DNA of 64,000 nucleotides from Phycisphaeraceae bacterium (lineage in GTDB: Bacteria > Planctomycetota > Phycisphaerae > Phycisphaerales > Zrk34), in assembly GCA_028282805.1 (NCBI GenBank), contig JANQHD010000009.1, forward strand, positions 1-64,000, read 5' to 3'. Made by a program: the position numbers and the translations under genes. This document shows positions 1,628 through 6,117 of the stretch, one piece after another. Each line of letters starts with the position of its first letter. Positions within the stretch are counted from its first letter, which is position 1. The notes under the pieces are model-generated. The model did no database searches, was not told the origin of the DNA, and worked only from the letters and a program-made list of their open reading frames with translations.

Positions 1628-2191
1628 ATGTCCGGCGGACACGAACACGAGCGGCGGAGCGACGCGGAACTGGTGCGCGCGATCAACGCGGGCGACCGGC
1701 GGGCGTTTGAGGCGCTGTACCACCGGCACCGGGACTGGGTGGCGAGCCTGGCGATGCGTTTTACGGGCGACCGAGAAGCGGCGCTGGATGTGTTGCAGGA
1801 AACGTTTTTGTACCTGGTGCGCAAGTCGCCGGGCCTTGAGCTCGAGGGGCGGTTGACTTCGCTGCTGTGGCCCGTGGTCAAGCACCTGTCGATCGCGCAC
1901 AACCGCAAACGCCGTCGGGAGCCGGCCGTGGACCCGATGGCGATGCCGGTGCGTGGCGTCGATGACCCCCCGCCGGGTTTGGACGACCCACGCGAGGCGC
2001 TGGCGGGCTTGGTGGGCGGCCTGCCCGAAGCCCAGCGGGAGGTGTTGCTGATGCGGTACGTCGACGGGATGGCGTTGGACGAGATCGCCGCGGCGCTGGG
2101 AAGACCGCTCGGCACGGTCAAGAGCCGGCTGCATCATGCGCTGGCGCGGTTGCGGGGCGACCCTCGGACAAAAAAATATTTCGAACGTTGA
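1628..2191 (+). CDS. ECF-type RNA polymerase sigma factor
   Basis: A 187-residue sigma-70 family protein of extracytoplasmic-function size. Region 2 is seen at about residues 25-70 (ALYHRHRDWVASLAMRF, then DVLQETFLYLV), and region 4 at about 125-175 (LPEAQREVLLMRYVDGM and GRPLGTVKSRLHHALARL, a helix-turn-helix for the -35 element). Regions 1 and 3 are absent, as usual in this class. The next gene, 40 bases on, encodes a single-pass membrane protein in the position of an anti-sigma factor, which suggests that this sigma factor responds to a signal outside the membrane. A CATGAT box lies eight bases before the ATG. Confidence 0.92.
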   Translation: MSGGHEHERRSDAELVRAINAGDRRAFEALYHRHRDWVASLAMRFTGDREAALDVLQETFLYLVRKSPGLELEGRLTSLLWPVVKHLSIAHNRKRRREPAVDPMAMPVRGVDDPPPGLDDPREALAGLVGGLPEAQREVLLMRYVDGMALDEIAAALGRPLGTVKSRLHHALARLRGDPRTKKYFER

Positions 2192-2231
2192 ACCTTGGCT
2201 CGCCTTTGCGCACTTGAACAGGGGAAGCACC

Positions 2232-2699
2232 ATGACGGACGGACGTACACAAACCGACTTGCCCGAGCCGAACGAGGCGTTGGCCGAGGACCTGCGGGCG
2301 TTGCTGGCCGATCGGCCGTTTGTGCCGGAGGAGGTCGACCGGGCGATTATCGCCGCGGCCGAGCCGCACCTGACGTGTGGTCGTCGGCGTGGCTGGCGTG
2401 TGGCCGGTGTTTGGGGGGGTGTCGCGGCGGCGGCGGCGGTCGCGGCGGTGGTGTTGCCGACGCTATGGGTTGGCCCGGGCCAGTCGGAGCCGGCGGTGGC
2501 GTTGGGCGATTACGCGCCGGGCGAGCCGGTGGACGTGGTCGACGCGTTGCGGTTGGCGCGGGCGCTGGAGCGCGGCGGCGAGTCGGTTTCGATCACGTGG
2601 GACCTCAGCGGCGACGGCGTGGTTGATCGGGCGGACGTCGACGCGGTCGCGATGCGAGCGGTGGTGCTGAACGACGAGCCGGAGGAGCGGCACGGATGA
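2232..2699 (+). CDS. Single-pass membrane protein with dockerin-like tail, putative anti-sigma factor
   Basis: A 155-residue protein. Residues 1-55 are cytoplasmic in character (ALAEDLRALLADRPFVPEEV), residues about 60-80 form one alanine/valine-rich membrane segment, and the remainder would lie outside. The outer part holds a calcium-binding dockerin-like motif, DLSGDGVVDRADVDAVAM, of the EF-hand-like form seen in type I dockerins; a second, weaker half may be PVDVVDALRLARAL. The ATG at 2232 follows GGGGA by six bases; a longer reading frame from 2136 overlaps the sigma gene and is less likely. Position and topology suggest an anti-sigma factor. No zinc-type HxxxCxxC motif is present, so this rests on context. 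Confidence 0.72.
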   Translation: MTDGRTQTDLPEPNEALAEDLRALLADRPFVPEEVDRAIIAAAEPHLTCGRRRGWRVAGVWGGVAAAAAVAAVVLPTLWVGPGQSEPAVALGDYAPGEPVDVVDALRLARALERGGESVSITWDLSGDGVVDRADVDAVAMRAVVLNDEPEERHG

Positions 2700-5265: not shown

Positions 5266-5295
5266 CGAGCCTGTTTCTCTATTCGAGGTCTCACC

Positions 5296-6117
5296 ATGAA
5301 CAACCGGGTCTGGTATCGGTGCGGGATGTCATTGGCGATCGTGTTAATCGTGCTGTCGAGCAACGGGTGCTGGCGCATGCACGACACGCTGGAGTCGGCG
5401 GTTGACCTGAATCGCTTCAACGATGCGGCCCGTGCGTCTGGGGCGCAGCCCGCTTTGCAACTGCCGGTGCGGGTCGCGGTCGCGCATCTGCAACACGGAC
5501 CGCTCGTTCCCGGCGAGGCACGGTTCGCCCATGCGCTCGACATCGAAGTCCGCCCGATCGGCGGCGATCACGACGAGGGGCTGTTGGCCCGTGTCCGGCC
5601 GCTGCCCCACGTCACGGACGTGGTCACGATCCACCCCGACAAGGACGCCCACGGCCGAACGCTGGTCGAACCCACGGCGTTGCTGCCCATGGCCCAGCGA
5701 CTGCAAGCCGACCTGCTCTTGGTGTATTCCAACGAGGTGACGCTCGGTGATAGCGAGTTCGCCGCCGGGCCGATCGGTTTTGTGTTGACCGTCGGCACGC
5801 TCGGCGTCTTCCCCGGCGTGCTCTACGACGGCGACGCGGTCACGCACGTCCGCCTGGTGGATGCCCAGACGGGGTACGTGTATCTCAGCGACTCGGCCGG
5901 CCGGCACGCATGGACGCTCGACGGCCTGTCGTTCGCCAACCGCCCGTTTGAGCGGGTGTGCCGGCGGGCGGAACGGCGGGCGGAGCAGGCCGTGTTCGCT
6001 GAATTGGGGTATCACTGGCGCAATATCTGCAAATACCGTGCCCCGTATCACCGAGCACCCGCCACGGCACCCGCCGGCGAACGGACACCGCACGGCCCGC
6101 GCTACCCAACCCGTTAA
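5296..6117 (+). CDS. Lipoprotein of unknown function
   Basis: A 273-residue protein with a lipobox (VLSSNGC, about residues 20-26) after a hydrophobic signal. Strand-rich segments such as RVAVAHLQH and LQADLLLVYSNEVTLGD are followed by a hydrophobic stretch (FVLTVGTLGVFPGVLY) and an arginine-rich C-terminus. LLLVYS is reminiscent of small planctomycete and proteobacterial lipoproteins of unknown role, but no family is claimed. It starts 30 bases after the VIT/vWA gene and may belong to the same transcript. Confidence 0.7.
   Translation: MNNRVWYRCGMSLAIVLIVLSSNGCWRMHDTLESAVDLNRFNDAARASGAQPALQLPVRVAVAHLQHGPLVPGEARFAHALDIEVRPIGGDHDEGLLARVRPLPHVTDVVTIHPDKDAHGRTLVEPTALLPMAQRLQADLLLVYSNEVTLGDSEFAAGPIGFVLTVGTLGVFPGVLYDGDAVTHVRLVDAQTGYVYLSDSAGRHAWTLDGLSFANRPFERVCRRAERRAEQAVFAELGYHWRNICKYRAPYHRAPATAPAGERTPHGPRYPTR

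Follow-up and report, generated by a model that had tools for sequence, protein, structure and literature searches.

Four consecutive genes (A–D; Table 1) in the window, a 64,000-nucleotide stretch of a contig from a Phycisphaeraceae bacterium, are likely to form an ECF sigma/anti-sigma operon with a periplasmic regulator, in which the exported protein C would dock on the outside dockerin of the membrane protein B and control release of the sigma factor A. On balance, it also appears that cohesin–dockerin binding acts as the outside switch of transmembrane sigma signalling beyond this genome, common across Planctomycetota and found in a few further lineages, with a dockerin protein as the anti-sigma factor and a dedicated cohesin encoded as its neighbour.

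Table 1. Features of the A–D locus, in window coordinates
Feature	Position	Strand	Basis
A: ECF sigma factor, 187 aa	1628..2191	+	sigma2 and sigma4 domains, Pfam and NCBIfam
B: probable single-pass membrane anti-sigma factor, 155 aa	2232..2699	+	position, conservation, TM, dockerin family, zinc domain in homologues
B parts: cytoplasmic ~residues 1–56; TM 57–75; outside dockerin ~90–145			
B dockerin repeat 1: degenerate calcium loop DYAPGEPVDVVD, then retained helix VVDALRLARALE	2508..2564	+	ligand count, alignment
B dockerin repeat 2: intact loop DLSGDGVVDRAD and helix	2601..2663	+	ligand count, alignment
C: exported protein of predicted cohesin fold, 153 aa, beta sandwich behind a signal peptide	2696..3157	+	AlphaFold2, Foldseek, family alignment
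D: lipoprotein, 703 aa, VIT and vWA (MIDAS DxSGS), conserved C-terminal tail VPVPDGVKYETTV	3154..5265	+	Pfam, inspection, homologues

The layout described in an earlier note on this DNA, a sigma factor gene followed by three genes joined by ATGA overlaps (B/C at 2696–2699, C/D at 3154–3157), is borne out by gene and domain calls. That note had extended the locus over 1628–6117, of which 1628–5265, holding A–D, stands as the conserved unit, and the gene at 5296–6117 falls outside it; this gene was rejected as a fifth member, having no Pfam or NCBIfam match and merely scattered homologues. The product of A matches Pfam Sigma70_r2 (40.6 bits) and Sigma70_r4_2 (61.2 bits), both above cut-off, and NCBIfam sigma70-ECF TIGR02937 (70.1 against a cut-off of 42.9), and has the composition of an ECF factor, with sigma2 and sigma4 domains only in ~190 aa. 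A tRNA-Lys gene (ttt) lies immediately upstream of the sigma gene at 1441–1513 on the reverse strand.

Conservation of the gene order was followed with C as the probe. Homologues of C occur, one each, in 12 of 61 relatives and in 51 of 397 genomes of the class; across the phylum, a profile search found them in 34 of 392 genomes, single copy each. A separate collection of 80 C loci, gathered with a tighter C alignment after a broad one proved too variable, derives mostly from Planctomycetota, with a few from metagenome-assembled genomes labelled Verrucomicrobia, Myxococcota, Deltaproteobacteria or Acidobacteria, labels which can err. Counting only those of the 80 loci with enough flanking sequence, B lies directly upstream of C in 70/71, D downstream of C in 60/61, and a sigma gene within 3.2 kb in 56/63 (45 on the same strand, 11 divergent), no nearby sigma gene being found in the other 7/63; with ~36 sigma-70 region 4 genes in the 3.9 Mb genome of the window, the chance of one falling within 3.2 kb is ~3%. 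The divergent sigma genes, several from loci labelled Fuerstiella or Planctomycetaceae, are still adjacent, and across the loci orientation has been reshuffled and the neighbourhood kept. Distant homologues of C (E 1e-7 to 1e-14) still adjoin a sigma gene and B, as in all eight of L159, L160, L161, L163, L164, L167, L168 and L169; D is absent from most of these most distant loci, which identifies the sigma factor, the dockerin-bearing putative anti-sigma factor and C as the conserved core and D as an addition. The A–B–C–D order, on whose conservation the earlier reading had been made to depend, is therefore found across Planctomycetota and in the few genomes labelled otherwise. No promoter dyad common to the regions upstream of 89 sigma genes was found, the search performing no better than its reversed-sequence control, so autoregulation is without support here.

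C begins with a signal peptide, and its family alignment carries the signature GxEGGxHxAFxxPPYYDP. An AlphaFold2 model of the window protein (64 rows) is a beta sandwich with a pLDDT of 93.4, for which ranks 1–21 of a Foldseek search of the PDB are all cohesins (probability 1.00, best E 4.7e-4), at moderate TM scores of ~0.5–0.6 and 6–18% identity. Window C has no Pfam match, Cohesin (PF00963) included; its homologues stay below the Pfam Cohesin cut-off (best E 0.003–0.04), and sequence profiles of C searched against the PDB find no cohesin, so that C is a cohesin by its predicted fold only. The signal peptide and the confident sandwich, with its best PDB matches all cohesins, uphold both the earlier description of C as a small exported cohesin-like protein and the beta sandwich on which that description had been staked. 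C has a single cohesin domain, and the locus encodes no multi-cohesin scaffoldin. Distant C proteins carry lipoprotein signals and are homologous to the near C family (hhalign 99.7%). In one locus (L132:4554-5216), an ambiguous residue seemingly separates two C-like copies within the C reading frame.

The outside part of window B carries the motif DLSGDGVVDRADVDAVA, and both this dockerin-type motif and the single membrane segment noted earlier are confirmed by hydrophobicity and by the B family profile, which matches solved dockerins (5lxv at E 8e-7, CelS at ~3e-5). Against Pfam Dockerin_1 (PF00404; cut-off 22.9) the window protein itself scores 17.6 bits, below the cut-off; the model is matched by 49 of 52 B homologues, several well above it (e.g. 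35.9–42.1 bits). Dockerins have two calcium loops, each with a helix behind it. Both loops are intact in 82 of 94 distinct B homologues, and the conservation of calcium ligands on which the earlier reading relied is thereby sustained for the family; in window B, the motif holds for loop 2, which alone is intact, and fails for loop 1 (DYAPGEPVDVVD), whose ligands are lost. After loop 1, 105 of 109 B proteins retain the helix (ILDAFxLAR), among them most members with lost loop 1 ligands, a pattern consistent with selection on a binding face. One B homologue (L133/L060) has lost both loops and still has C beside it, so a need for calcium cannot be universal.

C might instead lack a dedicated partnership with B and receive, perhaps in addition to B, the numerous exported dockerin proteins encoded in this genome, mostly of the PEP-CTERM kind, whose free dockerins would compete with B, so that the sigma factor would sense their traffic or sorting. 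This reading, which we regard as unlikely, draws on 35 Dockerin_1 matches in a genome with no Pfam cohesin, on C as the only member of its family there, and on the PEP-CTERM-like ends of 13 of 16 inspected dockerin proteins by pattern, and of a 14th by eye; however, the helix of those dockerins (SLLDLNxLGxNFG) differs from that of B (DILDAFxLARxxE), which suggests another specificity. The inspected loci (L179–L194) encode mostly large exported proteins with such ends and a uniform helix, for which no cohesin is found in the genome by Pfam.

Docking of C on B itself, the preferred reading, draws indirect evidence from a predicted contact. B and C share a reading frame in ten loci, interrupted by one stop codon, and reading through this stop in L136 yields a single chain of dockerin, linker (including the C signal peptide) and cohesin. 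The fused model (70 rows) reaches a pTM of 0.80 over 218 residues, a value on which a general preference of AlphaFold for dockerin–cohesin pairs may bear, with a pLDDT of ~95–97 in the dockerin and the cohesin and a disordered linker at 44–52. A pTM in the absence of a defined mutual placement of the two domains would hardly exceed 0.55, and 0.80 needs the dockerin placed within ~1–2 Å, which points indirectly to a confidently placed dockerin–cohesin interface in this model, a prediction for the homologue L136 and not for the window pair. Foldseek recovered only cohesins with the fused model, as single-chain searches cannot confirm an interface. Evolutionary distances of dockerin and cohesin correlate beyond those of sigma, cytoplasmic B and D with a partial r of 0.35, which is weak and with relatedness not fully removed; sigma and C reach 0.39 in the same test, and the mirror-tree signal is therefore positive but not specific to dockerin and cohesin. 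The earlier note had named either C or the vWA protein as the partner of the outside dockerin; an interface is predicted for C, and D is the less likely core partner, since it is missing from distant loci that have sigma, B and C.

It is distinctly improbable that the dockerin of B is a calcium-sensing or calcium-stabilised ectodomain with no cohesin partner, C working with D. The well-kept calcium loops of B would suit such an arrangement, as would the adjacency of C and D in nearly all testable loci and their ATGA overlap in the window, but the distant loci dispense with D, C is predicted to fold as a cohesin, the fused L136 model reaches a pTM of 0.80, and the helix by which dockerins contact cohesins is retained even where loop ligands are lost.

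The hydrophobic segment of window B is preceded by a K/R-rich stretch; a single such segment is present in 100 of 107 B family members of adequate length, with 4.8 K/R per 15 residues before it against 1.6 after, an excess that places the N-terminus of B inside and the dockerin outside. B thus shows the layout of class I (ASDI) membrane-type anti-sigma factors, lying beside an ECF sigma gene with one TM helix and the N-terminus inside. Window B itself has no match to an anti-sigma model in Pfam or NCBIfam and no Hx3Cx2C zinc motif, which defines zinc-binding class I anti-sigma domains (PMC7406223). Hx3Cx2C is present in the B proteins of five loci (L073, L147, L153, L154 and L158), and all five resemble NCBIfam anti-sigma model NF052375 (E 1e-6 to 6e-9) without reaching its curated cut-off. 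In two distant B proteins, zf-HC2 is found above its cut-off of 22.2 bits (L161 at 38 bits, L167 at 23.3 bits), together with a TM segment and Dockerin_1 in the same proteins (36.1 and 37.4 bits, respectively; cut-off 22.9). Zinc anti-sigma domains in distant B proteins at the same position indicate that B is probably an anti-sigma factor holding A back, and lend independent support to a role that had been guessed from gene position. That B is no anti-sigma factor, the sigma gene merely transcribing an envelope operon B–C–D, is very unlikely indeed: the short cytoplasmic part of window B, its lack of the zinc motif and its lack of a model match speak for it, but the homologous B proteins with zf-HC2 or NCBIfam anti-sigma matches speak against it, as does the frequency (about 44%) of class I anti-sigma domains without zinc (PMC7406223). 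Window B and most of its close relatives no longer have the zinc part and retain only a short segment, VPxEVDxAIL, matching the stretch that follows it elsewhere; without the motif, the cytoplasmic part of window B appears to be a reduced domain, one that presumably still binds A.

The reading of D as a lipoprotein with VIT and MIDAS-containing vWA domains proved correct, the protein having a lipobox (LTVAGC), a vWA domain with DxSGS, and Pfam matches to VIT (120.4 bits) and VWA_3 (66.4 bits), both above cut-off. D is alike to the marine proteobacterial sortase target protein model TIGR03788, also VIT/vWA, along 580 residues at 495 bits, which is below the cut-off of 551.65; D differs from it as a lipoprotein without a C-terminal sorting end, encoded in a different operon. 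The tail of D (window 5241-5262, forward strand) recurs as VPVPxGVxYxTTV: a pattern search matches it in 76 of 109 D proteins, a set that includes incomplete ones. The distant locus L168, without VIT, has a different vWA gene after C (L168:5541-7061), which we take to resemble the YfbK type; that an unlike vWA gene occupies this position is a hint that the system profits from a vWA partner. A tandem pair of D genes follows C at L147:2728-7491. A second VIT-domain gene, the sole other VIT match in the genome, lies on the reverse strand of the window at 48448–50631; none of sigma, B or C adjoins it in the gene calls.

In the proposed mechanism, the cytoplasmic N-terminus of B would hold A, one helix would cross the membrane, and the type I dockerin would face out, where exported C, its most likely partner being this dockerin, would cap the outer part of B. 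Docked C may keep B in an A-silencing state or shield it from a cutting protease; departure of C, through a ligand of its own, calcium, competition or the action of D, would then leave B to change or be cut, releasing A, and D may present or remove C. In this scheme, actual binding of B and C, its calcium dependence, the protease and signal involved and the part played by D are presumptive.

The A–B–C arrangement resembles E. coli rpoE-rseA-rseB (sigma E envelope stress) in its order of sigma factor, single-pass anti-sigma factor and exported protein, although that operon has no counterpart of D. Its outside parts are the RseA periplasmic domain and RseB, unrelated to the dockerin and cohesin found here. 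RseB guards RseA against proteolysis by binding to its periplasmic part (PMC2215328), and inhibition by C is tentatively favoured over the opposite sign purely by analogy with RseB. SigI/RsgI of cellulosome clostridia, involved in biomass sensing, likewise pairs an alternative sigma factor with a membrane anti-sigma factor bearing an outside protein–protein or carbohydrate module (PMC6056542, PMC3413522); the outside modules of RsgI are CBM, GH, PA14 or peptidase, whereas that of B is a dockerin, SigI differs from the ECF factor A, and no regulatory cohesin partner is encoded beside SigI/RsgI. The ‘planctosome’ proposal (PMC6461901) also places cohesin and dockerin modules in Phycisphaerae without cellulose degradation, but as extracellular peptidase complexes on multi-domain scaffolds, with no sigma/anti-sigma role named. 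No description of an anti-sigma factor that carries a dockerin and has a cohesin encoded beside it was found among the open-licence PMC papers searched, in agreement with the earlier note, which knew of no described dockerin–cohesin sigma control in planctomycetes. New here are the outside module (dockerin) and its partner (cohesin) in this role, the transmembrane sigma/anti-sigma system itself being of a known kind.

Cohesins and dockerins are best known for holding cellulosomes together; why they occur so often in other bacteria is largely unexplained. The proposed mechanism, if true, would give one non-cellulosomal cohesin–dockerin pair a regulatory job and would explain the module in roughly one in ten of the planctomycete genomes sampled, with a compact pair of two small soluble domains in which binding, its dependence on calcium and the consequence for sigma are measurable.

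Elsewhere in the window, positions 1–153 (forward strand) encode the end of a protein whose tail, VPEPASLMLLGMGALALSRKRRG, is PEP-CTERM-like, and 7605–10298 (forward strand) holds two adjacent exported paralogues of 431 and 436 aa, which seem to have arisen by tandem duplication.
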